Part shown: one piece after another, positions 45,056 to 61,156 of the stretch | Layout of the letters: each line of letters starts with the position of its first letter | Position numbering within the stretch: position 1 is the first letter of the stretch | NCBI RefSeq assembly: GCF_000730425.1 | Contig: NZ_CP008896.1 | Span: 2,046,001-2,110,000, forward strand | Length of the DNA: 64,000 bases | Origin: Pseudomonas fluorescens | GTDB lineage: Bacteria > Pseudomonadota > Gammaproteobacteria > Pseudomonadales > Pseudomonadaceae | Direction of reading: 5' to 3' | Notes under the pieces: generated by a model | The model's input: the letters and a program-made list of their open reading frames with translations, nothing else | The model's database searches: none | What the model was told of the DNA's origin: nothing | Translations under genes and position numbers: made by a program

Positions 45056-45445
45056 TGTCGCTAAAAAAAACCCTACATGTAGGGTTTCAAGCGAAAAGAC
45101 CAAACACAAATCAGACAAGAAACTCAAGCGCTTTCTTGCTCCTGTTTGGTGGAACTTAAACCTTTTTCGAAAGCCCAAACCGCGCACGCGGATGGCTGCT
45201 GTTTTCCAGCCCGAACGGGAGAAAGCGGTACGGGTGTTGCAATACAAACGACACCCACACAGCAATACGGTAAAGAGCCCAGGGCTTGGAACCGAAGACT
45301 TCGGCATGGAAGCGGCGCGAACAGCTCCCTTCCTCCTGTCCCGAGGTTGTTATGCCAGGCCAAGGCCTGTTGTAAGTGCTTCAGGACGGAACGGTGGGCA
45401 CCGTGATGGTGCCCAAATAAATATAGAATGTGGAGACAACCCCCC
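45056..45445 (+). ncRNA. Long structured nrdA leader (possible regulatory RNA)
   Basis: 390 bases with no credible gene but several hairpins: GGGTGT/ACACCC near 45225-45250, CCGAAG/CTTCGG near 45292-45304 and GGGCACC/GGTGCCC at 45396-45414, the last shortly before the RBS GGAG. I looked for the B12 riboswitch core and did not find it. Regulator or ligand unknown. Confidence 0.4.
45062..45087 (-). terminator. Minus-strand intrinsic terminator inside the nrdA leader
   Basis: Perfect palindrome 45068-45087 (AAACCCTACA/TGTAGGGTTT); with an A8 run at 45063-45070 on the plus strand. Read leftward this is a GC stem followed by eight T, the form of an intrinsic terminator. It would end a transcript antisense to the nrdA leader; no leftward gene precedes it. 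Confidence 0.6.
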
Positions 45446-48337
45446 ATGCAAACCGACACAACTCGCGAGAACCCGCAAGGCTCCGTGCCGCAGGGCGCTG
45501 ATTCGAATATGGATCTGTCCGCCACCGCGCCCGGCCAATTGCGCGTGATCAAGCGTAACGGCACTGTCGTTCCTTACACCGATGACAAAATCACCGTCGC
45601 CATCACCAAAGCGTTTCTTGCAGTTGAAGGCGGCACCGCTGCCGCTTCGTCGCGTATCCATGACACCGTTGCCCGCCTGACCGAACAAGTCACCGCGACC
45701 TTCAAGCGTCGCATGCCATCGGGCGGCACCATCCACATCGAAGAAATCCAGGACCAGGTCGAACTGGCCCTGATGCGCGCCGGCGAGCAGAAAGTGGCCC
45801 GCGACTACGTGATCTACCGTGATTCGCGCGCCAAGGAGCGTGCCGTACACGCACCGGCCGCCGAAGCCGTGCAAGCGCACCCGTCGATCCGCATTACCCT
45901 GGCTGATGGTTCGTTCGCGCCGCTGGACCTGGGCCGCCTGAACACCATCATCACCGAAGCCTGCGAAGGCCTGGAAGAAGTCGACGGCGACCTGATCCAG
46001 CGTGAAACCCTGAAGAACCTGTACGACGGCGTGGCCCTGACCGACGTCAACACCGCACTGGTGATGACCGCCCGCACCCTGGTTGAGCGTGAGCCGAACT
46101 ACTCGTTCGTGACCGCACGCCTGCTGATGGACACCCTGCGTGCCGAAGGCCTGGGTTTCCTGAAAGTCGCCGAAAGCGCTACCCACCACGAAATGGCCGA
46201 CCTGTACGCCAAGGCCCTGCCGGCCTACATCGCCAAGGGTATCGAATTTGAATTGCTGAACCCGATCCTGGCCACCTTCGACCTGGAAAAACTCGGCAAG
46301 GCGATCAACCACGAGCGTGACCAGCAGTTCACCTACCTGGGCCTGCAAACCCTGTACGACCGTTACTTCATCCACAAGGACGGGATCCGCTTCGAACTGC
46401 CGCAGGTGTTCTTCATGCGCGTGGCCATGGGCCTGGCGATCGAAGAGAAGCACAAAGAAGACCGTGCCATCGAGTTCTACAACCTGCTGTCGTCCTTCGA
46501 CTACATGTCGTCGACCCCGACCCTGTTCAACGCCGGCACCCTGCGTCCACAGCTGTCGAGCTGCTACCTGACCACCGTGCCGGATGACCTGTCGGGCATC
46601 TACCACGCGATCCACGACAACGCCATGCTGTCCAAATTCGCTGGCGGCCTGGGCAACGACTGGACGCCGGTCCGTGCACTGGGTTCGTACATCAAGGGCA
46701 CCAACGGCAAGTCCCAGGGCGTCGTGCCGTTCCTCAAGGTCGTGAACGACACCGCCGTGGCAGTAAACCAGGGCGGCAAGCGCAAAGGCGCTGTCTGTGC
46801 GTACCTGGAAACCTGGCACATGGACATTGAAGAGTTCATCGAGCTGCGCAAGAACACCGGTGATGATCGTCGTCGCACCCACGACATGAACACCGCCAAC
46901 TGGATCCCTGACCTGTTCATGAAGCGTGTCTTCGATGACGGCCCGTGGACCCTGTTCTCGCCATCCGAAGTGCCAGACCTGCATGACCTGACCGGCAAGG
47001 CCTTCGAAGAGCGCTACGAGTACTACGAAGCCCTGTCCCAGTACCCAGGCAAGATCAAGCTGTTCAAGACCATCCAGGCCAAAGACCTGTGGCGCAAGAT
47101 GCTGTCCATGCTGTTTGAAACCGGCCATCCATGGCTGACCTTCAAAGACCCATGCAACCTGCGCAGCCCGCAACAGCATGTGGGCGTGGTCCACAGCTCG
47201 AACCTGTGCACCGAGATCACCCTGAACACCAACAAGGACGAGATCGCTGTCTGCAACCTGGGCTCGATCAACCTGCCGAACCACATCGTGGGCGGCAAGC
47301 TGGACACCGCCAAGCTGGAACGCACTGTCAACACCGCCGTACGCATGCTCGATAACGTGATCGACATCAACTACTACTCGGTACCACAGGCGCAGAACTC
47401 CAACTTCAAGCACCGTCCGGTTGGCCTGGGTATCATGGGCTTCCAGGATGCGCTTTACCTGCAGCACATTCCTTACGGTTCGGATGCGGCGGTCGAGTTC
47501 GCCGACAAGTCCATGGAAGCGGTCAGCTACTACGCGATCCAGGCTTCCTGCGACCTGGCCGACGAGCGCGGCGCCTACGAGACGTTCCAGGGCTCGCTGT
47601 GGTCCAAGGGCATCCTGCCGCTGGATTCGCAACAGATCCTGATCGAAGCCCGTGGCCAGAAGTACATCGACGTTGACCTGAACGAAACCCTGGACTGGGC
47701 GCCGGTACGTGCCCGTGTGCAGAAAGGTATTCGTAACTCCAACATCATGGCCATCGCACCGACCGCCACCATCGCCAACATCACCGGCGTCTCGCAGTCG
47801 ATCGAACCGACCTACCAGAACCTGTATGTGAAATCGAACCTGTCGGGCGAATTCACCGTGATCAACCCGTACCTGGTCCGCGACCTGAAAGCCCGTGGCC
47901 TGTGGGACTCGGTGATGATCAACGACCTGAAGTACTACGACGGTTCCGTGCAGCAGATCGAACGCATCCCGCAAGAACTCAAGGAGCTCTACGCGACTGC
48001 CTTCGAAGTGGACACCAAGTGGATCGTTGACGCCGCCAGCCGTCGCCAGAAGTGGATCGACCAGGCCCAGTCCCTGAACCTGTACATCGCCGGCGCTTCG
48101 GGCAAGAAGCTGGACGTGACCTACCGCATGGCTTGGTACCGTGGCCTGAAAACCACTTACTACCTCCGTGCCCTGGCTGCAACCAGCACCGAGAAGTCGA
48201 CCATCAACACCGGCAAGCTGAACGCTGTTTCCAGCGGCAACCACGGTGATGATTCGGTACTTGCCGCACCGGCCGGCCCGGCCCCCGTGCCAAAGGCCTG
48301 CGCGATTGACGAGCCGGATTGCGAAGCTTGCCAGTAG
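45446..48337 (+). CDS. nrdA: Class Ia ribonucleotide reductase, large subunit
   Basis: 963 residues from MQTDTTRENPQ (GGAG 10 bases upstream). N-terminal ATP-cone (about 32-125, VIKRNGTVVPYTDDKI), then the ten-stranded reductase barrel: STPTLFNAGT, SSCYLTTVPDD, NLCTEI with the active-site Cys, and a C-terminal CAIDEPDCEACQ redox pair. It makes dNDPs using the NrdB tyrosyl radical. No nrdB follows: the next genes are recombinases of a mobile island. Confidence 0.97.
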   Translation: MQTDTTRENPQGSVPQGADSNMDLSATAPGQLRVIKRNGTVVPYTDDKITVAITKAFLAVEGGTAAASSRIHDTVARLTEQVTATFKRRMPSGGTIHIEEIQDQVELALMRAGEQKVARDYVIYRDSRAKERAVHAPAAEAVQAHPSIRITLADGSFAPLDLGRLNTIITEACEGLEEVDGDLIQRETLKNLYDGVALTDVNTALVMTARTLVEREPNYSFVTARLLMDTLRAEGLGFLKVAESATHHEMADLYAKALPAYIAKGIEFELLNPILATFDLEKLGKAINHERDQQFTYLGLQTLYDRYFIHKDGIRFELPQVFFMRVAMGLAIEEKHKEDRAIEFYNLLSSFDYMSSTPTLFNAGTLRPQLSSCYLTTVPDDLSGIYHAIHDNAMLSKFAGGLGNDWTPVRALGSYIKGTNGKSQGVVPFLKVVNDTAVAVNQGGKRKGAVCAYLETWHMDIEEFIELRKNTGDDRRRTHDMNTANWIPDLFMKRVFDDGPWTLFSPSEVPDLHDLTGKAFEERYEYYEALSQYPGKIKLFKTIQAKDLWRKMLSMLFETGHPWLTFKDPCNLRSPQQHVGVVHSSNLCTEITLNTNKDEIAVCNLGSINLPNHIVGGKLDTAKLERTVNTAVRMLDNVIDINYYSVPQAQNSNFKHRPVGLGIMGFQDALYLQHIPYGSDAAVEFADKSMEAVSYYAIQASCDLADERGAYETFQGSLWSKGILPLDSQQILIEARGQKYIDVDLNETLDWAPVRARVQKGIRNSNIMAIAPTATIANITGVSQSIEPTYQNLYVKSNLSGEFTVINPYLVRDLKARGLWDSVMINDLKYYDGSVQQIERIPQELKELYATAFEVDTKWIVDAASRRQKWIDQAQSLNLYIAGASGKKLDVTYRMAWYRGLKTTYYLRALAATSTEKSTINTGKLNAVSSGNHGDDSVLAAPAGPAPVPKACAIDEPDCEACQ

Positions 48338-48355
48338 CAATCATAAGTTTTAAAA

Positions 48356-48479
48356 CGTATACATCCTAAAAAGCAATACCCTCCAACCCCAAGAAAAACA
48401 AGGGGTTGGAGGGTTTACTTGCCGTATACCCATCCCTATACTCGCCGGCCTATCTAGCTCACAGGTCGGAAGCGTATAC
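48356..48479. repeat. Three CGTATAC copies at the island left edge
   Basis: CGTATAC at 48356-48362, 48423-48429 and 48473-48479, the outer two extended to CGTATACA. They surround the terminator and end just before the first recombinase gene, so they are candidate recombinase-binding sites. Confidence 0.4.
48379..48416 (+). terminator. Terminator after nrdA
   Basis: Perfect 12-base stem CCCTCCAACCCC/GGGGTTGGAGGG with an 11-base loop, followed by TTT. It would limit nrdA read-through into the recombinase genes. Whether it belongs to the chromosome or to the island end cannot be told. Confidence 0.75.
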
Positions 48480-48528
48480 ATTGGTCAGTTACTCCATCAG
48501 ATCTTTCACTGCATCCGACGACCTGCCC

Positions 48529-49725
48529 ATGGCTGTGCTCGTTGATCAGGAAGGTCGCCCCCTCTTCCTTCCCAATATCTATGTAACGCTCAGATATCGA
48601 GATGTAGGTCTTGCCGTAACCACAATTGAGAAAGTGCTCCGCTCGTTGGGTATGGCCTACCTGTGGGCAATTTCCCGGAAACTCGATTTCGACCAGATCC
48701 TTAAATCAGAGACGTTTCTATCGATTGAACAGTGTGAAGACCTAGCGTTCTTCCTTCGTCTTGATCGCGGTGCCCAAGACCAGATCGTTGAGGAGTCGCT
48801 GAATGCTCGACCACGCAAGATTGCGCGATTGGAGCAGGTGCGTAGTGGGGGTACTCCGAACGTACATAGAACAATGATTTCTGCTACGGAAGGTGGTTAC
48901 CGCATCCGGACTGTGGCGAACTATCTAGAATTCAATCACGAGCGAATCAGCCCAAAGGCATCAGATAAGCCCCGCAAAGACCTCGCCACAGCGCGTGAAA
49001 AGGCCATAGCTGCCTTGCGAGCCCAAGAGCCCAGGGCGAAGACCGCCGAGGAAGGTGACGCCCCAGAGGGACTTTCTGAAGACGTGATGGATGCCCTGGA
49101 CGCCGCGTTTGAGCCAGGATCCGAAACCAACCCATTTCAATCTGATTTTCATCAGTATCGGAATCACTTGATGTACCGGATTTTCTCTGAGACCGCGATC
49201 AGACGCAGTGAGCTTCGATACATACGAGTCGATGACATCAATCATGCAGCACGCCGTGTACGTGCCCGAGTATCGAAGACCGTTGCGCGGACGCTGCCCA
49301 TATCTGAGCAAACCGCATACGACTTTCACGACTTCGTCATGAAGTACTGGAGCCATATTCCAGCTAGGGCGAGGAAACATGGCTATCTCTTCACCACCGC
49401 CGATGGCGACCATTTGTCCTTAGGGGCAATCAATCTCGCTTTCAGGGAGCTTCGCCGCAAAAATAACCTGCCCGCCAGCGTGGCTCCGCATGCTCTTCGA
49501 CGTACGTGGAATGATCGTTTAAGCAGGAAGATAGACAGCCTTCCGCCTGAGAAACGGATGCAAGCGGGCGAAGAGAAGCAGATGAGGAACCGTTTGAATG
49601 GTTGGTCGAAAAAGTCTTCCATGGAAGCGCGTTACTCCAGCCGGCACATCCGGGAAAAATCGGACAAGATCGCTGAAAGCCTGGCTAACGAGTTGCGTGA
49701 AAAAAATAAAGGTGATTCGAAATGA
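48529..49725 (+). CDS. Tyrosine recombinase 1 of the island (site-specific integrase)
   Basis: 398 residues from ATG at 48529; a TTG at 48481 with GGAAG upstream is an alternative start. The N-terminal ~170 residues are a SAM-like DNA-binding domain. The catalytic domain keeps all key residues: Arg in AIRRSELRYI, Lys in SKTVARTLP, HALRR in APHALRRTW, Trp in LNGWSKKSSM and Tyr in EARYSSRH. First of three recombinases; its stop overlaps the next start (ATGA). It is additional to the named Gmt trio or corresponds to one RIT-type member. Confidence 0.88.
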   Translation: MAVLVDQEGRPLFLPNIYVTLRYRDVGLAVTTIEKVLRSLGMAYLWAISRKLDFDQILKSETFLSIEQCEDLAFFLRLDRGAQDQIVEESLNARPRKIARLEQVRSGGTPNVHRTMISATEGGYRIRTVANYLEFNHERISPKASDKPRKDLATAREKAIAALRAQEPRAKTAEEGDAPEGLSEDVMDALDAAFEPGSETNPFQSDFHQYRNHLMYRIFSETAIRRSELRYIRVDDINHAARRVRARVSKTVARTLPISEQTAYDFHDFVMKYWSHIPARARKHGYLFTTADGDHLSLGAINLAFRELRRKNNLPASVAPHALRRTWNDRLSRKIDSLPPEKRMQAGEEKQMRNRLNGWSKKSSMEARYSSRHIREKSDKIAESLANELREKNKGDSK

Positions 49726-51182
49726 CCGTCACAAGTAACGCTGTCCATAAAGACGAACCGAATTCTAATGCGAAGACCGACAAAGTTGTATTACTCGATG
49801 GCCGGATTATCGAACTCAGCATAGGTCGGCTTCTCAAGGTTGTTGATCGCGACGGGAATCTTCGCTCTCTGAACTTCGATATTCTTTCGCTTGGAAACAC
49901 GCTGCATGAAAGCATGTATCGGGCGATCAAAAACACGCTATCCACACACAGCCTTTCATATAACACCACCATTTTGAGTGCGGTGAGTAATTGGTTTCAA
50001 CTGCCAGAAATGGCTCGTAAAACTCAAATTGACATTTCGGAGATCAATCGCCTTAACGAGATCTCAGCAAACTACCGACCTTTCGTAATCCCTTTGTTAC
50101 GCCGAATATCAGCCTTGGGCATGCCCGGCCTGTCAGCTCAGGTCTGTGATTTTCTAGAGCACCCGTTTAAGTGGGAAGAACAAGGCACCGGCGCATACTT
50201 CGGGTTGCTCACCAATGATCCTGAAAGAGGCGCGCTCACCGAGCAAGAGATCCACAACATCCACCATCAACTTAATAGGGCATTTTCCAGCGGAGCCATC
50301 GACCAAGCCGACTACACAATCTGCTGGTTCTTCATTGGCACTGGCGTCAGGCCCGCCCAAGCTCACAGGATGAAAAAGAAAGACGTCATCATCCATGACA
50401 GAGATGGTATGGAGGTGACTCTCAGGGTTCCGTTGGCGAAGGGAGAAATGACCACGTCTCAGGAGTACTGGGTACGTCGAGCCCCTACGGTTCTAGCAGA
50501 ATGCCTGATCAACTACCTAGATGCATATCCATCGGCAGATGATGCGGGCACCGATGATCCGTTATTCACCGAGCCTTCCTCCAATGCGCTGGGGCAGCGC
50601 ATGAGCTCGATCATCCGAAAGCTGAATACCTACTCCGAGCGCCTTGGTACGAAGATCGCGATTACACCTTACCGCTTCAGGTACACCCTAGCTACCAGAG
50701 CTCTGGCTCAGGGGGCATCAGATTATGAGGTGGCTCGCCTGCTCACGCATCGAAGCACCTCCTGCATTCAGTACTACAGGGCGTCTATGCCAGAGCTTCA
50801 GAATCCTATCCGAGAGGCTCTTGGCAAGGAGATGAGCTACTTCGCAAGGGCGTTCCAGGGGAAGGCGATTTCCGGCCTCCATGAGGCCACTAGGGCAGGC
50901 GACCCTGATGCCGTAATCAGCGATTTCATGAGGCTCATGGGGATGCCCGTGGGCGCTTGCGGCACGCGCGCTGAATGCCACCAGAACGCCCCAGTTGCGT
51001 GTCTGGCGGGATGTGCTCATTTCGAGCCTTTGCTGAGCGCGCCTTGGGAGGCTTTGATGGCTTCTCTGGTGGAAGATCAAGAGCTCGAAACAGAGCCGAG
51101 GATCCGCCAAATCAATCACAGTGCAATGTCGGCAATCCAGCAGATCATTACCATCCGCGACACATCGGAAGAAGCAATTTAA
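49722..51182 (+). CDS. Tyrosine recombinase 2 (GmtY-like candidate)
   Basis: 486 residues. Catalytic Arg in GTGVRPAQAHRM, second box PYRFRYTLATRAL where the usual His is Tyr, His in LLTHRSTSCIQYY and the nucleophile Tyr there. A cysteine-rich stretch follows (GACGTRAECHQ...CLAGC), a feature shared with recombinase 3 and with Tn554-type proteins. Size and place fit GmtY of the Gamma-Mobile-Trio, but I name it by context only. The next gene starts directly after its stop codon. Confidence 0.82.
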   Translation: MTVTSNAVHKDEPNSNAKTDKVVLLDGRIIELSIGRLLKVVDRDGNLRSLNFDILSLGNTLHESMYRAIKNTLSTHSLSYNTTILSAVSNWFQLPEMARKTQIDISEINRLNEISANYRPFVIPLLRRISALGMPGLSAQVCDFLEHPFKWEEQGTGAYFGLLTNDPERGALTEQEIHNIHHQLNRAFSSGAIDQADYTICWFFIGTGVRPAQAHRMKKKDVIIHDRDGMEVTLRVPLAKGEMTTSQEYWVRRAPTVLAECLINYLDAYPSADDAGTDDPLFTEPSSNALGQRMSSIIRKLNTYSERLGTKIAITPYRFRYTLATRALAQGASDYEVARLLTHRSTSCIQYYRASMPELQNPIREALGKEMSYFARAFQGKAISGLHEATRAGDPDAVISDFMRLMGMPVGACGTRAECHQNAPVACLAGCAHFEPLLSAPWEALMASLVEDQELETEPRIRQINHSAMSAIQQIITIRDTSEEAI

Positions 51183-53321
51183 ATGGGCGAAATCGTACAC
51201 TTCATTGGTAGAGATGAGCTGACCGCTCAGGAAAACCTGGATTCGTTCATTTCACACGCTAAGGCTAACTTTCCTTTCATCAATGTTATTTGGGAAGATA
51301 ACAGCTGGGATATCTCGACCTTCATTATCGGAAGAGCCCAGGGTAAAACGAAGAAAATTGCACATTTCAAATCTCTGCGGGACGAATCTGGCAACAAATC
51401 AACCGTCCAGATTCCATTCGAGATCGATTTTTTACCATTCGCGAAATCCACATTTAGTGAGGTTATGCGCCGATTGCGCTTAGCCGAATTCAAAAGGCAC
51501 TTATACGCACTACAGGCGATTGAACAGGCGTTAATTGATTGCAAGCGCAGACCGTGCATCACGCAACTTACTCCGATAGTGCTCGATAAGGCTGCTGACT
51601 TGTTGAAAGCCAGATTTACGGATGCTTGGGCGACGGCAAGGGTTCTCGAACGGATTGTGACTGAAGTGGTAAATCCTGCTCGCCTCACTCCAAATCTTTT
51701 GGAGTGGAAGAGTCCGATTGGTTACAAGGCACCTGTAAGGAATGACAGGGTTGCGACAAAAGAATCTGAAAAAGCGGTCGCCAGACTCCCTTCTCTCGAA
51801 TCCATACTGGCATTGGCGGAGATTCATCACACCAGTAGCCATGTGTCAGACAAGCTGACAACCGCATTTGTCTCTCTTGCGATGTATGCCCCAAGCAGGT
51901 CGGCCGAAATTCTGAGCCTTCCAGTTGATTGCATCCGATCAGCAGACACCAAAGAAGGCCCTATCATGGGCATTGCCTGGGCACCCGCCAAAGGGGCGGG
52001 AGCAATGACGAAATTTGCTGCCTCCGATGAGTTCGAGGCGGTCGTAGAAAAGACAGTCAGTTATCTGGTGGATCTTGGCGCCCCCGCCAGAAAGGCTGCG
52101 GGCTGGTATACCGCAAACCCAGCGAAACTCTATCTCCCGCCTGGGACGGAACACCTGCGTAACCAGCCGATAACGCTTTACGAGGCCGCTATCATTTTGG
52201 GCAAGACAACCCCGATTCAAGGCTCTCACGCGACCAGATATGCCTTGGTAAAACGTGAGGATCGCACCACTGATAAATCACGAATGGGGCCAGAATCGCA
52301 GCAGGCTCGCTGGGTTGCGCTCTACGAATTTGAATCGCTTGAAAACTTCGTTCTGGCAAAGCTTCCAGACGCTTTTCCAATCTTGGATGGCCATACCGGC
52401 CTAAAGTGGCACGAGGCACTATGGGTACTGCCTGAAAACATCCTCCGGCCCAACGCCGAGCCTTTACTACATGTGCCTTCGCCGCTGTCGACGAATCAAT
52501 TCAATAACCAGCTAGGGGCCAATCCTGGCGGGGTTACGATTTTCAGCCGAAACGGCAAGGTGAACTCAGATGGCAGCCCCATCGCGATCACCACACACGA
52601 TTTTCGCCACTTGTTGAATACTCTCGCCCAGAGCAAGCACTTGAGCGAATCGCTCATTGCATTTTGGTCTGGGCGCAAGAGCGTCAAACAGAACGAATGG
52701 TATGACCACCTGCCTCAAGAGGCATTCATTGAGGCTTATCTCAAGCTCGGGGCCAATGAGCGCCCTCTCGTCATTGAAGGTCATCTCGAAGCCAAAGTGG
52801 ACTCGATAGCCATTGCTCATGGGCTCACCCGCGAGCAGGCCCTTAAAATTGAGCTAGGAGCGACTCACCGCACCCGCTACGGCATTTGCCGTCATGACCA
52901 TGCACTCACCCCCTGCCCGAAGGACAAGGACTGCGTGAACTGTGGAGAGCACACATTTACGAAGGGCGACAAACGTCATCATGACGAAGCTGAGTTCCAG
53001 TTTAAGCTGCATGAAAAAGCTGTAAGAGATGCAAAGAGCGCTCATGAACGAGGTGAGCCTGGGGCCTCTCGCTGGCTTAATCTGCACACTCCGAAGCTCG
53101 AACGCTGGCAGCTTGTTCTCAACAAGCTGAATGATCCGGCCATACCAGACGGGGCATTCATCACGTTACCTCCTCCCGAGAATTCGCAGTCGAAGGCCGG
53201 CTTGGCCCAGGCTGTCAGGATTATTAACCAAGACGTCCCTTCGCCTGCGCCATTCGTGGCGAGTGCGGATGTAGATTCGGACGCAGATGAGAAACTGTTA
53301 CTAGATATGGGTTTTTTCTAA
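51183..53321 (+). CDS. Large tyrosine recombinase 3 (GmtZ-like candidate)
   Basis: 712 residues, much longer than ordinary integrases. Arg in YAPSRSAEILSLPVDCI, THDFRHLLNTLA as box II, and W/Y in FWSGRKSVKQNEWYDH complete the catalytic set, with about 200 residues inserted between Arg and box II. After it comes a zinc-finger-like CRHD...CPKDKDCVNCGEH and a helical tail. Similar large partners are TnpB of Tn554 and GmtZ. Zero-base spacing from the previous stop (TAAATGGGCG) implies translational coupling. Confidence 0.85.
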   Translation: MGEIVHFIGRDELTAQENLDSFISHAKANFPFINVIWEDNSWDISTFIIGRAQGKTKKIAHFKSLRDESGNKSTVQIPFEIDFLPFAKSTFSEVMRRLRLAEFKRHLYALQAIEQALIDCKRRPCITQLTPIVLDKAADLLKARFTDAWATARVLERIVTEVVNPARLTPNLLEWKSPIGYKAPVRNDRVATKESEKAVARLPSLESILALAEIHHTSSHVSDKLTTAFVSLAMYAPSRSAEILSLPVDCIRSADTKEGPIMGIAWAPAKGAGAMTKFAASDEFEAVVEKTVSYLVDLGAPARKAAGWYTANPAKLYLPPGTEHLRNQPITLYEAAIILGKTTPIQGSHATRYALVKREDRTTDKSRMGPESQQARWVALYEFESLENFVLAKLPDAFPILDGHTGLKWHEALWVLPENILRPNAEPLLHVPSPLSTNQFNNQLGANPGGVTIFSRNGKVNSDGSPIAITTHDFRHLLNTLAQSKHLSESLIAFWSGRKSVKQNEWYDHLPQEAFIEAYLKLGANERPLVIEGHLEAKVDSIAIAHGLTREQALKIELGATHRTRYGICRHDHALTPCPKDKDCVNCGEHTFTKGDKRHHDEAEFQFKLHEKAVRDAKSAHERGEPGASRWLNLHTPKLERWQLVLNKLNDPAIPDGAFITLPPPENSQSKAGLAQAVRIINQDVPSPAPFVASADVDSDADEKLLLDMGFF

Positions 53322-53735
53322 ATGGGCGCACCAAAGCTAAACGACACCGGAATCGAAAAGGCAGTCCGCCTGCTGGATGGCTGGGCTGGAAAACTGACTT
53401 GGGATCGCTACCTCGCAATGCTAGAGGTCGATATTGGGCACAAGTACACCAAGGCGGCAATGCTCCGGCACCCGCGCATCAAATCGGCCTGGGATCACGC
53501 TAAGGAGCACGCAAAGGATGACAACGGAGTAAGCGTTTCTCGAAGCGCAGTTGAGACAACTAAGGCTTTGGAGCGCGTCAAGCTCCTGGAGACTCGGGTC
53601 GAACGCTTAACTCGTGAAAACAACGCTCTCTTGGAGCAATTTGTGCGGTGGAGCCACAACGCAGTACGGGGAGGTCTCACCCTGGATGACCTCGACCGGC
53701 CTCTGCCATATGCCAAGCCAAAAGAAATTCGGTAG
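53322..53735 (+). CDS. Small coiled-coil recombinase-accessory protein (GmtX/TnpC-like candidate)
   Basis: 137 residues, last gene of the recombinase operon, starting immediately after the previous stop. The N-terminal helical part (DGWAGKLTWDRYLAMLEVDIGHKYTKAAMLRHPRIK) suggests DNA binding; residues about 80-110 (ALERVKLLETRVERLTRENNALLEQ) form a clear coiled coil. TnpC of Tn554 is a comparable small partner that sets orientation and frequency. No enzyme motif. Confidence 0.75.
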   Translation: MGAPKLNDTGIEKAVRLLDGWAGKLTWDRYLAMLEVDIGHKYTKAAMLRHPRIKSAWDHAKEHAKDDNGVSVSRSAVETTKALERVKLLETRVERLTRENNALLEQFVRWSHNAVRGGLTLDDLDRPLPYAKPKEIR

Positions 53736-53902: not shown

Positions 53903-56900
53903 CTATAACCACGCTTCGCAGAGCGTTTCAGCTTGGTTGAGAATCAGCTGAGCCGCTTCCTCGGCTTGATCCGGCGGGTATTTGTACTTGCGCAGAATCC
54001 GCCGCACCAGGATGCGCAGTTTGGCCCTCACGCTTTCACGGCTGCTCCAATCGACACTCACGTTGGCCCTTAAGCTAGCGGTCAGTTCGTGGGCAATTTT
54101 GGCCAAGATCTCGTCGCCCAGTTCACGCACCGAGGCCTCGTTGTTGGCCAAGGCATCGTAAAACGCCAACTCGTCATCGTTGAGCCCTAGCGCTTCACCA
54201 CGCTGGCTTGCGGCAGCGAACTTCTTGGCCATTTCGATCAGCTCTTCGATGACCTGGGCGGTCTCGATAGATCGGTTTTGGTATCTTTTAATCACATTGG
54301 CCAGTAGCTCGGAAAACTTCTTCTCCTGTGCCAGGTTGGTGCTGTAACGGCTCTTGATTTCGCCTTCAAGCAAGCGCTCCAACAGCTCGACCGCCAGGTT
54401 CTTCTCGGGCAGGTTGCGCACCTCGGCGAGAAACGCGTCGTCGAGCAGGCCGATATTGGGCTTATCCAGGCCCACTGCCTCGAAGATGTCCACCACGTCG
54501 CCAGAGACCACAGCATTGCCGATGATCTGGCGAATGGCCAACTCACGCTCTTCGTCGGTCTTTTTCTGCTGACTCACTTCGCGCTTGATCAATATCACTT
54601 TGATCGCCTGGAAGAACGCCACTTCCTCGCGGACGGCTTTGGCTTCATCCAAGGTGCAGCACAGGGTGAAGGCCTTGCTCATGGCCAGCGCGGTGTCAGC
54701 AAAGCGCTTCTTGCCGTCTTCCAAGCCCAACACCTGATTGGCTGCTCCCGCCAGAAGCTTGTGTCCGCCGGTGAGGAAATGGCTGTAATCGAAACCATGC
54801 AGCAAGCTGCGCAGGACGTCGAGCTTTTCCTCCAGCACCGCATAGGCTTCATGGGCATCCACAGTTGGCCGCCCTTTGCCCTTGCTGCCGGTGTACTCCT
54901 TGAGCGCCGCTTTCAGCTCATTGGCGATACCGATGTAGTCCACCACCAGGCCGCCTTGCTTGTCCTTGAACACTCGGTTGACCCGAGCAATGGCCTGCAT
55001 CAGGTTGTGGCCCTTCATGGGCTTGTCCACGTACAGGGTATGTACGCAGGGTGCATCGAAACCCGTTAGCCACATGTCACGGACGATCACCAGCTTGAGC
55101 GGGTCAAATGGATCCTTGAAGCGCTTTTCCAGGCGTTTTTTAAGCTGTCCAGAATAGATGTGCGGTCGCAGCAAAGCCTTGTCCGACGCGCTGCCCGTCA
55201 TGATGACCTTGATGGCCCCTTTCTCCGGGTCTTCGTCGTGCCATTCCGGACGCAGGGCGACAATCTCGTTGTAAAGGTGCACGCAAATCTCGCGACTCAT
55301 AGCCACCACCATGGCTTTGCCCGGCATTTGGCCCACACTCACCATGCCCTGATTACGCTCCTCGAAATGCTTAACCAGGTCGGCGGCGACGCTATTAATA
55401 CGTGGTTCTGCGCCAACCACTTTTTCCAGTGCGGCCCAGCGACTTTTCAGGCGCGATTGCTGGTCATCTTCTTCGTCTTCGGCCAGCTCATCCACCTGAT
55501 CGTCAATCGCAGGGAGCTCGCTGTCTTTCAAGGACAGTTTGGCCAACCGCGACTCGTAGTAGATGGCGACGGTTGCACCATCTTCAGTGGCCTGCTGCAT
55601 ATCGTAGACGTGAATGTATTCGCCAAACACCGAGCGGGTGTCACGGTCTTCGCTGGACACCGGGGTGCCGGTAAAGGCCACGAATGTGGCGTTCGGCAGT
55701 GCATCACGCAGGTGCTGCGCATAACCGACCTGATAACGGGCTTGGCTTTCGCCGGACTCGGCCCCCTCCGATGCCTTCAACTCGGCGCCAAAGCCATACT
55801 GGGTGCGGTGCGCTTCGTCGGCGATGACCACGATGTTTGAGCGGTCAGACAGCACGGGGAAGTTGTCTTCATCCACTCCTGGCATGAACTTCTGGATCGT
55901 GGCAAAGATAATGCCGCCACTGGGCCGATTGGCCAGCTTGGTGCGTAAGTCGCCGCGTGACTCAACCTGGATGGGCTGTTCGCGTAGCAGATCCTGCGAT
56001 AGCGAGAACACCCCGAACAATTGACCATCCAGGTCGTTGCGGTCAGTGATGACCACAATGGTGGGATTCTCCATTGCTGCTTCCTGCATCACCCGAGCGG
56101 CGAAACAGGTCATGGTGATGCTCTTGCCTGAGCCCTGGGTGTGCCAGACAACCCCGCCCTTATGCGTCCCACCGGGACGCGAGGCACTAACCACCTGTTG
56201 AATGGCGGCGCGTACGGCGTGGAATTGGTGATAGCCCGCAATCTTCTTTACCAGTCGACCGTCATCTTCGAACAACACGAAGTAGCGTAAGTAATCGAGC
56301 AGCATCTTCGGAGCCAAAGCACCGCGCACCAAGGTTTCCAGTTCGTTGAACTGACCCAGGGGATCGAGATCTTGGCCATCGATGGTGCGCCAGTTCATGA
56401 AGCGTTCGGCATCTGCTGACAACGAGCCCATGCGCGCTTCACTACCGTCGGAGATCACCAGGATTTCGTTGTACTGGAACAGGTCAGGGATCTGTTCCTT
56501 GTAGGTCTGAATTTGGTCGAAGGCTTTGCCCAGGTCAGCCTTCACGTCGGCAGGATTCTTTAACTCCAGCAACACCAACGGTAGGCCGTTGACGAACAGG
56601 ATAATGTCCGGACGCCGGGTGTGTTTTGGCCCCAAAATGCTGAACTGATTGATGGCCAGCCAGTCGTTGGCTTTCACCTCAACCCAGTCGATCAGGCGTA
56701 CGAAATCGCCACGGGTTTCACCATCTTTTTGATACTGCACCGGTACGCCGCTGACCAACAGTCGATGGAACAGTCGGTTAGCCGACAGCTGTACCGGCAG
56801 ACCCAGTTCGAGCACCTGTTTGAGTGCATCTTCGCGTGCGGCCAGTGGCACCTTGGTATTGAGCTTGGCTATGGCACTGCGCAGGCGCTCGACCAAGACC

Positions 56901-57025
56901 ACTCGACGATAATGATCGCGCTCAGGGAATTCTCCATCATGGGCGATATCCGGCCCGTACAGGTGGGTATAGCCCACCTCCTTTAGCCAGCCGAGGGTTT
57001 CTTGTTCTAATTGGTCTTCGGTCAT
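53903..57025 (-). CDS. hsdR: Type I restriction enzyme R subunit
   Basis: 1040 residues. The N-terminal nuclease motif [19 protein letters not shown] (Asp...Glu-x-Lys, near residue 135-157) is followed by the translocase: Walker [23 protein letters not shown] box [24 protein letters not shown] and [23 protein letters not shown]. It cuts unmodified DNA far from the recognition site after ATP-driven translocation. All motifs are intact. Last gene of a leftward operon, convergent with the recombinase genes. Confidence 0.96.
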
Positions 57026-57110: not shown

Positions 57111-58049
57111 TCATTCGCTGGCCACCCACTCCCTAGCCGAAACTTCACCGGTCTGGTGGAAGCGACGTATGCGACCGATGAACTCGGCGAAGTCGCCATT
57201 CTCTTCAGTCAGCCGATTACACATATCCCAATCGATTTCGCTACGTTCGCGAGCAGGGATCAGAATCTGGCTTTCCGTGGGACTCTGTACGTCTAGCTGA
57301 ATCACACCAATGCCATGAGCTGCGGCGAGCATGCGTAACTCTTTGAGCGTGCCGTCGCCCTCCACTGTGGCTGCCACCAGGTAGCCGAAATGCGCCCAAG
57401 AGGAATTGGACACGGCCTGGAAGAAACTCTTGCGCGCATTGGAACGATTGAGCAGCAGCTTGACCTCGAACGACCAAAGCCGAGCACGACGCTCGCCCAA
57501 CACACGGACACAGTCACGCAAATCAAGTTTCCAGTCGGCAGTCAGGTCTTCTAGGCCTACCAGATCCGGATGCAACCATTCGTTGCCACCGCTGCCAGCA
57601 CGGTTGGACGAACGCTTTTCGTTGATCCGCATAGCGTACACACGCTGCTCGTCTGTCAGCAGGTATTCAGCCAAGAACGGATACAGCGCATGCTCCCGTA
57701 ATGGCGAGGCCTCAGGCAGGCCTGACGGTACAAGCGTGCCCCCTTCAGCCGCCGCCACCTCAGCGTTGGCATCCATGTCCGACCAGTAATAGTGACGTGG
57801 CCGTCCTTCAGTGGTTTTCAGTTGATGGTGCATCTGCTGCCAGCGCGGGCGTGAACCAGAGATCTCTGCCACCAATTGCTGTACTAAGTCATTGTCGGTC
57901 TGGATGTAGCCGGCACTGCCCGCTTTCTTGATCGCGCATTCTGCAGGGAACTGCTCGAATATCCATTGCGCTAGTTCGCGAGCGCTCTGCTGAGTATCCG
58001 GAAGGCTTTGTAAGCGTTCGATGACACGTTGACGCAGATTCAGAGCCAT
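57111..58049 (-). CDS. COG2958/HrgA-like protein with PD-(D/E)xK nuclease motif
   Basis: 312 residues. The N-terminal ~80 residues (RELAQWIFEQFPAECAIKKA) look like a winged helix of the restriction-associated HTH kind. The C-terminal half holds HPDLVG, then WSFEVKLLLN and a Gln in FFQAVSNSSW, the layout of a PD-(D/E)xK fold. Such proteins occur at restriction loci with unknown role. It lies one base after hsdS and 85 before hsdR, so inside the operon. Confidence 0.8.
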   Translation of the reverse strand: MALNLRQRVIERLQSLPDTQQSARELAQWIFEQFPAECAIKKAGSAGYIQTDNDLVQQLVAEISGSRPRWQQMHHQLKTTEGRPRHYYWSDMDANAEVAAAEGGTLVPSGLPEASPLREHALYPFLAEYLLTDEQRVYAMRINEKRSSNRAGSGGNEWLHPDLVGLEDLTADWKLDLRDCVRVLGERRARLWSFEVKLLLNRSNARKSFFQAVSNSSWAHFGYLVAATVEGDGTLKELRMLAAAHGIGVIQLDVQSPTESQILIPARERSEIDWDMCNRLTEENGDFAEFIGRIRRFHQTGEVSAREWVASE

Positions 58050-58050
58050 A

Positions 58051-59325
58051 TCAGACAGCCTCCGACAACATATTTTCGATGAAGGTGTCAGTTTCCGGTA
58101 GCCGCAGTTGCCCAGAGATCAGACGCGGCAACAGGGTGTCGCGGAGCTGGGTGAGCGTTTGGGCCTGCCTGTTTTTTTCCAGTATCCGTAAGTGGATCGC
58201 AGTAGCGATGGCCTCATAAGTATGAACGAGCTCTAGAGGAGGCAGTACGTATGGAAGACCATGGATATGATTACGATTAAGCGTTGGAACGGCTGAGCCT
58301 GCATTGAATGATGAGAAGTCCAGTAGCCTCAGGATCTCATATGCATAACAAGGCGTCGCACGTTTAAACTCCTTGACCCACAATGTTGTATTTAAAGGCC
58401 AGTAATCCTCCAAGGTCAAAAACACCTTTCCAAGCACCCCTGAACGCCCTGTTACTACCCCTGGGCCTTTCGCCATGGCAATGTTATGTGTACCGCTAGG
58501 GCCACTTGCAGCGATCAGAGGGTAGACACCCTCAGTACGCTTGGAGGCGGGAAGATCAAATCCACGCTGGAGTACTAGCAAATCTTGCAGTTCGCCAATC
58601 AGCCACCCCTTTGGCACCAACCCCAGTTCAGATTCTTCAAAACTATCGGGAAATAACGCGGCGGCGGTCTCGTCCATGCCTTCTGGTTCCAGCCCTTCCG
58701 CCTTGGCCCGCACCGGATCAAAATCGACAAACCAGGACTTAAACAGCGCTTGGGCAATAGCTTCCAAGGTTGTATTTGTTTCGCGTAGCAGGGCAATACG
58801 GTCATCGAGGGAGCCAATCAGCTCAATGATCTTTCCACGCTCATACTCAGGAGCCATGGGAACCGGAAGCGCCCGTAAGTCTTTCAGATTAATGGTTGTC
58901 TGAACGGTTGTATTCGCTCGGCTCCCAAGCAAATGCTGGGACAAGGGTGATCTGAGACAAAGGGCAAGCCAATTTGGGTCGACATCTTGGGGGTGGATCA
59001 CTGCCACAGCTCTAGCTACGTTGAAGCCCTTGAGTGCCTCTGAAACTACAGCTACTTGGCCAACGCTACCAACAACCGTGAGCAGAACCTCGCCACCTTG
59101 CAATCGAGTTCGACCGTACTTGCTTTCAATCTCAGGCTCAATTCGCATGAGCTCCGATAGCTCAACACGGCCCTCTTTGAAGTTGTTCACTCGAACGATA
59201 GGAACACCATGATCAACGTGTGTACCTGGTTGCACGACACCGTAGGTTACGGAGTTTTTTTGAGCTAATTGTTCAAGAGGAACGTAGCTCCAGCCCTGTG
59301 GAAGAGTGGGAAGGTCAAAGCTCAT
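58051..59325 (-). CDS. hsdS: Type I restriction-modification specificity subunit
   Basis: 424 residues, two target-recognition domains each followed by a helical spacer. The first spacer contains IIELIGSLDDRIALLRETNTTLEAIAQALFKSWF, with the second at IATAIHLRILEKNRQAQTLTQLRDTLLPRLISGQL. It sets the bipartite DNA sequence recognised by HsdM and HsdR; the sequence itself cannot be predicted here. Start MSFDLPTLPQGWSYVPL overlaps the hsdM end by 11 bases. Confidence 0.94.
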   Translation of the reverse strand: MSFDLPTLPQGWSYVPLEQLAQKNSVTYGVVQPGTHVDHGVPIVRVNNFKEGRVELSELMRIEPEIESKYGRTRLQGGEVLLTVVGSVGQVAVVSEALKGFNVARAVAVIHPQDVDPNWLALCLRSPLSQHLLGSRANTTVQTTINLKDLRALPVPMAPEYERGKIIELIGSLDDRIALLRETNTTLEAIAQALFKSWFVDFDPVRAKAEGLEPEGMDETAAALFPDSFEESELGLVPKGWLIGELQDLLVLQRGFDLPASKRTEGVYPLIAASGPSGTHNIAMAKGPGVVTGRSGVLGKVFLTLEDYWPLNTTLWVKEFKRATPCYAYEILRLLDFSSFNAGSAVPTLNRNHIHGLPYVLPPLELVHTYEAIATAIHLRILEKNRQAQTLTQLRDTLLPRLISGQLRLPETDTFIENMLSEAV

Positions 59326-61045
59326 ACCCCAGCCCTCCCAGCTTCTGCCGGATCAACTGGTCGAGTTCCGCGCCTTTGGCCAACTGTTCACCCAGCAGCG
59401 CCGTGAGGTTCTGCATTTTATCGGCAAAGGCTTCGTCGTCATCTTCGACGGCCTCGGCACCGACATAACGGCCCGGGGTCAGCACATGGCCGTGCTCGGC
59501 GATTTCAGCGAGGGTAACGCTGCGGCAGAAGCCGGTAACATCGGTGTATTCGGCGATTTCACCACCGACATCAAGTGGTTCGCCACGCCAATTGGCCACA
59601 ATCTGCGCGATGCGCTCAATGTCGTTGTCGAGCAGTTCGATCTGCACCCGACTGACTTTGGTACCCAGCTTACGGGCGTCGATAAACAGTACTTCGCCAG
59701 GGCGGGCGACTTTCTGCTTGGTCAAAAACCATAGGCAGGCCGGGATCTGAGTGTTGAAGAACAACTGGCCCGGCAGTGCGATCATCACTTCAACCACGTC
59801 GGCCTCAACCATGGCGCGGCGAATGTCGCCTTCAGTGTTCTGACTGGAGCTCATCGAGCCGTTGGCCAGGACAATGCCGGCACGGCCGCTAGATTTCAGG
59901 TGAAACAGCATATGTTGCAGCCACGCGTAGTTGGCATTACCTTGCGGCGGCGGGCCGTAAACCCAGCGCGGGTCACCTTCCAGGGTACGGTGCCACCAGT
60001 CACTTATGTTGAACGGCGGGTTAGCCAGGACGAAATCGGCGCGTAAATCGCTGTGCTGGTTGCGGATGAAGGTGTCCGCAGGCTCACGGCCCAGGTTGAA
60101 ATCAATGCCGCGAATGGCTAGGTTCATCGCTGCCAGACGCCAAGTGGTGGGGTTGGACTCCTGGCCGTAGATGGAGACGTCGCCGAGTTTGCCGCCGTGG
60201 GCTTCGATGAATTTTTCCGACTGAACGAACATACCACCGGAGCCGCAGCAAGGATCGTAGACCTTGCCGTGGTGCGGGTTGAGTACCGCGACCAAGGTCT
60301 TGACGATGCTGGCCGGGGTGTAGAACTGGCCGCCTTTCTTACCTTCGGCACTTGCAAATTGGCCGAGGAAGTATTCATAGACCTGACCGAGCAGGTCGCG
60401 GGCATGGTGGGCGTCGCCGCCAAAGCCGATGATGGAAATCATATCGACCAACTCACCGAGCTTGCCATCGGGCAACTGGGAACGGGCATAACGCTTGTCG
60501 AGGATGTTTTTCAGACTGGAGTTTTCCGCCTCGATGGCGGACAGCGCCTCGTCGATGCGCTTGCCTATATCCACCTGTTTGGCGGAGGCACGGATTGACT
60601 CCCAGCGGGCTACTTCCGGTACCCAGAACACATTCACTTCTTTGTAATAGTCACGCTCTTCGAGTTCTGCGGCCAGATACGCCGGATCGTCACCTTCCAG
60701 GTAGTAGTCATCGCTGGCATCTGTAAAACGACGCTCCAGTTCGACACGGCGGCCTGCAAAGCTGTCGGAGATGTACTTAAGGAAGATCAGGCCGAGGACG
60801 ATGTGCTTGTATTCGGCGGCGTCCATATTGGCGCGCAACTTATCAGCCGTGGCCCAGAGGGTTTTCTCAAGCTCTTGCAAAGTGCTACTGGACTGGCTGT
60901 TGGTGGCTTTGCGGCCCGCCTTTTTCTTTGGTGCGTCAGGTTCGGCGATGGCGACAGTTTCGGGCGCTAAGCGGGCGCGCGCGGCGTTAAGGGCTTGTTC
61001 GGCCAGACTGTTGGCGACCTGTTCGGAATCCTTTTGATTCGTCAT
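59315..61045 (-). CDS. hsdM: Type I restriction-modification N6-adenine methyltransferase subunit
   Basis: 576 residues from MTNQKDSEQ (AGGAG 7 bases upstream). HsdM N-terminal helical domain (WATADKLRANMDAAEYKHIVLGLIFLKYISD), then the SAM motif DPCCGSGGMF and catalytic NPPF in VLANPPFNISDWW. It methylates adenine in the HsdS target and protects the host. An extra basic, Ala-rich N-terminus (KKKAGRKATNSQ) precedes the domain. First gene of the operon. Confidence 0.96.
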   Translation of the reverse strand: MTNQKDSEQVANSLAEQALNAARARLAPETVAIAEPDAPKKKAGRKATNSQSSSTLQELEKTLWATADKLRANMDAAEYKHIVLGLIFLKYISDSFAGRRVELERRFTDASDDYYLEGDDPAYLAAELEERDYYKEVNVFWVPEVARWESIRASAKQVDIGKRIDEALSAIEAENSSLKNILDKRYARSQLPDGKLGELVDMISIIGFGGDAHHARDLLGQVYEYFLGQFASAEGKKGGQFYTPASIVKTLVAVLNPHHGKVYDPCCGSGGMFVQSEKFIEAHGGKLGDVSIYGQESNPTTWRLAAMNLAIRGIDFNLGREPADTFIRNQHSDLRADFVLANPPFNISDWWHRTLEGDPRWVYGPPPQGNANYAWLQHMLFHLKSSGRAGIVLANGSMSSSQNTEGDIRRAMVEADVVEVMIALPGQLFFNTQIPACLWFLTKQKVARPGEVLFIDARKLGTKVSRVQIELLDNDIERIAQIVANWRGEPLDVGGEIAEYTDVTGFCRSVTLAEIAEHGHVLTPGRYVGAEAVEDDDEAFADKMQNLTALLGEQLAKGAELDQLIRQKLGGLGYEL

Positions 61046-61088
61046 GCACTGCTCCTGCATCCCACGCAGATGAATAGCGCGGTAAAAA

Positions 61089-61156
61089 AATGAAAACCCG
61101 ACCACCGATGGCCTGGGTGAAGATGGGCTTCATGATAACGGGTCGATGGGTTTTCG
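61089..61156. repeat. Inverted repeat upstream of hsdM
   Basis: GAAAACCC near 61090 and GGGTTTTC near 61148 face each other, with the flanks GACC/GGTC extending the pairing imperfectly. It covers the probable hsdM promoter region and could be an operator or a folded leader. Confidence 0.35.

Follow-up and report, generated by a model that had tools for sequence, protein, structure and literature searches.

The GInt islands, defined by Bardaji et al. in 2017 (PMC5385486), carry ginABCD, a set that encodes a small protein next to three tyrosine recombinases, and all four genes are required for excision and integration; their cargo lies behind ginD, their ends are imperfect repeats, and their targets are the end of ssb or of the gene for the alpha subunit of ribonucleotide reductase (RNR). 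Genes for toxins, resistance and defence move between bacteria on GInts (PMC5385486, PMC10121019), which form the Tn6571 family and carry defence systems in E. coli (PMC10121019). We describe here a four-gene operon in a stretch of 64,000 nucleotides of Pseudomonas fluorescens (contig NZ_CP008896.1, positions 2,046,001 to 2,110,000; G000:C1:2046001-2110000 of a 6.06-Mb chromosome), hereafter the window, in which all coordinates are given unless stated otherwise. The quartet is very probably the ginABCD set of a 22.4-kb GInt sitting at the stop codon of nrdA, whose three recombinases and GinD likely act together to release it as a circle and to insert it at this single place. The island would be a well-preserved example of an already described kind.

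It shares with the GInts of PMC5385486 the operon order, the small fourth protein, the cargo behind ginD, the imperfect direct repeats and the target. Two points differ: in the passages considered, the first catalytic arginine of GinC is reported missing and the ends are said to have no identified feature in common that would serve self-recognition, whereas here this arginine (R239) is present in 78 of 78 aligned sequences and mirrored boxes lie near the ends. The P. aeruginosa strain PA_D16 harbors GInts of 40.3 and 35.8 kb (against 22.4 kb here) at the end of a duplicated RNR alpha gene, the same target gene end as that of the window island, a likeness drawn from their description (PMC5385486). 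The Tn6571 family, also compared by description, combines three integrases, a short gene and defence genes, as here, but at hotspots of E. coli. An earlier note on this DNA had seen in the extra recombinase an uncommon layout; in fact, the four-gene layout is what has defined GInts since 2017 (PMC5385486).

That note had also placed the module among Tn554 and RIT elements, and we kept from this proposal the idea of a multi-recombinase mobility operon of Tn554-like design at an island edge. Tn554 is made of three genes, TnpA-TnpB-TnpC. It resembles our operon in pairing an ordinary with a long tyrosine recombinase and in having a small protein that influences orientation (PMC3414803, in the passages used); unlike it, tnpABC includes no counterpart of GinB, and GinD matches DUF6262, which we take to be the family holding TnpC, weakly. 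A three-gene set of this kind is ruled out by the four genes present here and found in order in 59 of 60 related loci. RIT elements do have three adjacent tyrosine recombinases, as here, but they are described as three overlapping genes of about 3.5 kb (PMC3414803), to be set against an operon of 5.3 kb with four genes in a 22.4-kb element with cargo; RIT was, thus, rejected as well.

The Island at the End of nrdA

The target gene nrdA (45428-48337, + strand; ribonucleoside-diphosphate reductase subunit alpha, NCBIfam NF005544, 1790 bits) stands immediately before the island, whose left edge is 48338, the first base past the nrdA stop codon. The right end, at window-equivalent position 70753, lies about 6.75 kb past the end of the window, and the island measures 22,416 bp when counted from the nrdA stop through the right core (attR). 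The left core (attL), TGCCAGTAG (48329-48337, + strand), comprises the last nrdA codons and the stop; it is an imperfect direct repeat of the attR core, TGTCAATAA, found beyond the window at the equivalent of 70745-70753 (L039:8745-8753; G000:C1:2116745-2116753). The two 9-nt cores differ at 3 positions and are slightly shorter than the GInt repeats in print (10-17 nt). As the end repeats are imperfect, a search for exact 10-mers returned nothing useful.

The earlier note had proposed comparing empty and occupied sites in related strains. Matches to the nrdA end were obtained in 48 of 57 relatives (the window's own genome included), and the 30 best loci were retrieved; 29 of these belong to genomes other than that of the window. 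In all 29, nrdA ends in CCA(A/G)TAA, no GInt box lies behind it, and the alignment to the window stops at about 48336; for the three closest relatives (L043, L044 and L045), it resumes at window-equivalent 70744, meaning that these sequences align on both sides and span the empty site. Relatives without the island have a single TGCCA(A/G)TAA at the insertion site, reading TGCCAGTAAGCTGAG in the closest one. In the occupied state, NrdA keeps its C-terminal CEACQ and stops at TAG, where the relatives have TAA. The G+C content drops from 0.619 over the 20 kb to the left of nrdA to 0.539 within the island and is 0.566 over the following 20 kb; the left edge is, therefore, more clearly visible in composition than the right one.

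The Four-Gene Operon

The quartet occupies 48406-53735, directly behind nrdA and entirely on the + strand. The initiation codon of ginA (48406-49725) is ambiguous: TTG 48406 opens a frame of 439 codons, while TTG 48481 and ATG 48529 would give proteins of 414 and 398 aa, respectively. It is followed by ginB (49722-51182, 486 aa), ginC (51183-53321, 712 aa) and ginD (53322-53735, 137 aa), with a 4-bp overlap between ginA and ginB and 0 bp at the two other junctions; this gene order and these junctions predict a single operon. The earlier note had recognized three tyrosine recombinases and a 137-residue coiled-coil protein at an island edge, and our gene calls, the catalytic residues and the edge at 48338 agree with it.

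GinA and GinB score 55.0 and 34.4 bits, respectively, both above the Pfam Phage_integrase cut-off of 27.1. Alignment gives GinA the catalytic set R266, K291, H362, R365, W400 and Y410 (numbering of the 439-aa form) and GinB the set R210, K240, R320, H343 and Y352, with Y317 at the variable His-II position; across the GinB alignment, R, K and R are kept in 71 of 71 rows and H and Y in 70 of 71, and the C-terminal part has four conserved cysteines. GinC returned no match in a Pfam scan at E values up to 1. We nevertheless consider this large protein a tyrosine recombinase because of its aligned catalytic residues (R239, K270, H472, R475, R498 and Y507, ahead of a C-terminal Cys/His cluster) and of the fold of its structure model, whose search returned Cre, XerH, an integron integrase and the Tn1549 integrase, without thereby excluding other families. 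Compared with sequences of the PDB, the GinC profile gave a single weak match, unrelated. The R-K-H-R-R-Y set is complete in all 78 rows; the full catalytic set in this sample, as read from the alignment, conflicts with two papers and goes beyond the description of GinC in the passages considered.

The small GinD has a helical N-terminal part and a long helix (coiled coil). Its Pfam matches were three, all weak and each below its own cut-off, and its model matched no PDB fold at an E value of 0.001. Among 59 GinD members, ZapB, a coiled coil, matches 29, and DUF6262 matches 16 at E values up to 0.1 (best 0.003, i.e., weak). A search of the genome for a second copy of ginB at an E value of 0.001 found none. 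For the operon DNA, no near-identical match was found in the phage and plasmid collections, from which records very close to the window's genome may be missing.

Relatives and Target Sites

In order to find relatives, an alignment of GinC (that of the window and of 13 of 29 other loci fetched in a GinC search of the genus) was used as query against a collection holding one genome per species; 267 relatives were found and the best 80 kept. All four genes were matched (BLAST, E up to 0.01) in 74 of these 80 loci, the six lacking one or more of them (L075, L084, L088, L099, L102 and L123) being cut by contig ends, and wherever the four genes were full-length they were in order and adjacent, with one exception among 60 loci. 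The quartet is, thus, a conserved unit far beyond chance. The earlier note had left room for another outcome, in which its proteins would match unrelated phage integrases and no related genome would carry the quartet; the 74 loci show the opposite.

Eleven of the 80 loci lie behind an RNR alpha gene (RNR-type), 39 behind a gene whose product has a DDDIPF-type tip (ssb-type) and 19 behind neither, and 11 were too short to be classified. A locus was called RNR-type when the upstream gene ends in CxACQ and is linked to NrdA by BLAST; for three RNR-type loci (L076, L080 and L085) and one ssb-type locus (L095), the upstream gene was confirmed by NCBIfam, the other ssb calls being made on the C-terminal motif. 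The RNR-type loci have a GinC 40-99% identical to ours, the ssb-type loci being more distant, and their hosts are two Pseudomonas, three Acinetobacter, a gammaproteobacterial bin, four Alphaproteobacteria and a betaproteobacterial bin. L089 (GinC 40% identical) is the sole evaluable locus at that identity that does not lie behind RNR alpha, L075 and L084 being too short.

This choice of sites also bears on whether the operon could instead be a Gamma-Mobile-Trio (GmtY-GmtZ-GmtX), as the earlier note had suggested from protein sizes, or an SE, copying itself out via one strand and leaving no empty site. The number of genes is similar in these systems. The SE, with its set intA-tfp-intB-srap (PMC10214605), is moreover like our element in having four core genes at one end, imperfect inverted repeats at its ends and few target sites, and 3 of 7 GInt strains yielded no empty site in that same study. 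We hold such an identity to be highly improbable: the relatives of the window operon occupy the ends of ssb and RNR alpha, which are the GInt targets (PMC5385486), and the SE and GInt proteins form separate clusters (PMC10214605; both SE and Gamma-Mobile-Trio are compared here by description). The second SE protein, Tfp, is without a catalytic motif (PMC10214605, in the passages used); the second protein here is GinB, with the residues listed above. None of the Gamma-Mobile-Trio families turned up in general Pfam, NCBIfam and PADLOC scans.

With a GInt as the preferred identity, one may still ask whether it is alive. It could be a dead remnant, the operon and ends persisting in an immobile island whose cargo is retained for restriction. 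IS66-family genes do lie inside the cargo, and among 298 sampled genomes of the genus, 48 had a GinC relative at E values up to 1e-10, with no GinC other than ours exceeding 39% identity, the closer relatives being found outside this sample, in other Pseudomonas (L073-L075). We find this doubtful, as the four genes are open, the catalytic residues are complete except for the variable His-II position of GinB, and both ends are present. Furthermore, P. antarctica (L073), whose NrdA is 98% identical to that of the window, has a 99% identical GinC at the same nrdA-end site, in an element of 14.4 instead of 22.4 kb.

Relatives of GinC also occur in 90 of 72,556 plasmid records. On the E. coli plasmid NZ_CP011065.1 (L187), ssb is followed by a gin-like quartet and the anti-phage gene avs4; on the P. 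aeruginosa plasmids NZ_CP045917.1 and NZ_MZ673648.1 (L185 and L186), a quartet with a 60.7% identical GinC is flanked by two aminoglycoside phosphotransferase genes. Alloalcanivorax balearicus (L140) and Paraburkholderia elongata (L143) each have a pair of gin operons, complete or in large part, near each other on one contig. In Acinetobacter colistiniresistens (L076), ginA looks broken, since its match falls in two separate open frames. Finally, two loci of the window's genus, L188 (3404-9089) and L189 (4439-9809), have the identical four-gene order with a GinC only 24-25% identical; in L188, the second protein is without the HxxR motif and the large third protein has it, which hints that GinC may correspond to the large SE recombinase and not to Tfp.

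End Boxes and Hairpin

Nineteen bp past the nrdA stop codon lies a GTATAC box (48357-48362, + strand), and a mirror copy of it stands near the other end (L039:8719-8724, beyond the window), 21 bp before GTCAATAA. In the related loci, GT(A/T/C)(A/T)A occurs within +17 to +27 in 10 of the 11 of RNR type and in 31 of the 39 of ssb type, to be compared with 0-1 and 0-2 loci, respectively, at ten other offsets. The right mirror box is present 20-21 bp before the 8-nt core in all six RNR-type elements for which 50 kb or more were available, and each of the six also has the left box; these are the window island and those of P. antarctica, P. psychrophila, A. colistiniresistens, A. seifertii and a Rhodospirillaceae bin. 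Element lengths of 22.4 (the window island), 14.4 (P. antarctica), 26.0, 11.6, 18.4 and 18.9 kb were obtained. The Rhodospirillaceae element was missed by the nrdA-type pattern because its core ends in TAG, and its right end was found by listing GTTTACG in its 55 kb, where the motif occurs at two places, one of them with the core. An earlier, looser version of the nrdA-type pattern gave one extra match, 43 kb past the right end of the window island.

For ssb-type loci, a tight right-end pattern gave 10 forward and 0 reverse matches in 915 kb covering the 39 loci, with gaps of 15-18 bp; eight of the 20 extended and two of the 19 unextended loci were matched, and 8 of these 10 also have the left box. 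Boxes near both ends are, thus, found in the window island and in thirteen related islands. In Tepidimonas fonticaldi, two gin operons (L100 and L101) that agree in gene offsets and lengths are arranged head to tail at a distance of 21.7 kb, the first one behind ssb, so that one right end can be read directly against the next left end. The boxes are not described in the parts of PMC5385486 considered here, in which the terms "inverted repeat" and "terminator" do not occur, nor in the passages used from PMC10214605; compared with these sources, paired GTATAC/GTAAAC end boxes, the left one about 20 bp inside and its mirror 15-21 bp before the right repeat, appear to be new.

Behind the left box, a strong hairpin (48379-48416, + strand), followed by only three T, is a possible terminator that would replace that of nrdA. 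The 70-nt stretch containing it has a folding energy of -28.8 kcal/mol and a z score of -7.2, z scores being calculated against mononucleotide shuffles. With z below -2 as the limit, such a hairpin follows the left box in 11 of 12 RNR-type elements (that of the window counted) and 37 of 39 ssb-type ones; among 39 control stretches, 3 reach this limit. Runs of TTTT were seen in 7 of the 12 and in 38 of the 39 elements, respectively. This terminator-like structure, as predicted from the sequence, also goes beyond the GInt descriptions considered here.

Boxes and hairpin might, instead, serve gene expression, as a promoter or regulator site for ginA, and have no part in recombination. Two more GTATAC copies (48424-48429 and 48474-48479, + strand) lie between the hairpin and the likely ginA start, upstream of the latter, at the same offsets in P. 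antarctica (L073) and P. psychrophila (L074), and promoters in both directions are reported at the left end of GInts (PMC5385486). What makes us judge such a role quite unlikely is that the box has a mirrored counterpart at the right end (20-21 bp away from the repeat in nrdA-type elements), where there is no gin gene to control.

To return to a GInt with its own end sites, several points weigh against this interpretation as a whole. The assignment was made through layout, target and ends, the type proteins of P. stutzeri DSM 4166 being known here by description, and we infer excision and integration from the sequence alone. The model of GinC is unreliable around the catalytic tyrosine Y507 (predicted local distance difference test, pLDDT, below 50 for residues 506-535). 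The right end of the island is poorly marked by composition (0.539 versus 0.566 G+C), and its hairpin is without a TTTT run. As for the boxes, the nrdA-type right-end pattern gave, next to 5 forward matches, 2 reverse ones, both in A. seifertii, and the right end was not found in the other 6 of the 12 RNR-type elements (L077, L079, L081, L082, L083 and L085), for which 6.5-18.4 kb were at hand. The tight ssb-type pattern was written after matches had been seen; a loose pattern was not enriched in the 20 extended ssb-type loci (25 forward versus 20 reverse matches), and the right end was not found in 12 of these 20 and in 17 of the 19 unextended loci.

A Possible Mode of Excision and Integration

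One reading of these observations would be that the Gin proteins bind both mirrored boxes and the core, and that strand exchange inside the short repeat, within CARTA, releases a circle. The paired boxes would then be the element's own recognition sites, facing each other across the circle junction. Our guess for the protein binding the boxes is GinC or GinD, which would leave GinA and GinB for the core. Integration at the last nrdA codons would restore the encoded residues together with a stop codon, and the hairpin of the element, acting as a terminator, would end the nrdA message instead of that of the host; the position at the end of the gene and the hairpin could, thus, spare an essential gene.

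More broadly, we lean slightly towards a joint proposal in two parts. First, GinA, GinB and GinC would each retain the catalytic tyrosine and form a three-enzyme heteromer rather than two enzymes with a dead partner. Second, GInts across Proteobacteria would share one end code, a mirrored GTWWAC about 20 bp inside each end, so that on the excised circle the boxes would symmetrically frame a core that repeats the final codons of an essential gene of DNA metabolism (for ribonucleotide reductase its CxACQ tail, for SSB its DDDIPF tip). One has to keep in mind that the RNR tail holds redox cysteines and that the SSB tip is made of functional residues; gene tails that encode such fixed residues would offer a target site that hardly drifts. 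Fixed end boxes and an exact core would provide concrete sites for assigning binding to the individual Gin proteins, would shed light on how an island can reside harmlessly at the end of an essential gene, and, as regards the boxes, would allow the ends of GInts to be called automatically.

Cargo

Behind ginD, the cargo is of restriction type; the window island is the one element whose cargo genes were read. Pfam, NCBIfam and PADLOC scans identified, all on the - strand, hsdR (53903-57025, type I restriction subunit), hsdS (58051-59325, type I specificity subunit) and hsdM (59315-61105, type I methyltransferase); a gene for a 312-aa protein with no match in these three scans lies between hsdR and hsdS (57111-58049, - strand). 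A helicase-like gene on the same strand covers 61672-64000 of the window and starts past it, at window-equivalent 64242. The cargo also includes a helix-turn-helix gene and the IS66-family genes (L039:4780-7094, near the right end), and the gene adjoining the right end has a weak match, below cut-off, to Mrr-type nucleases.

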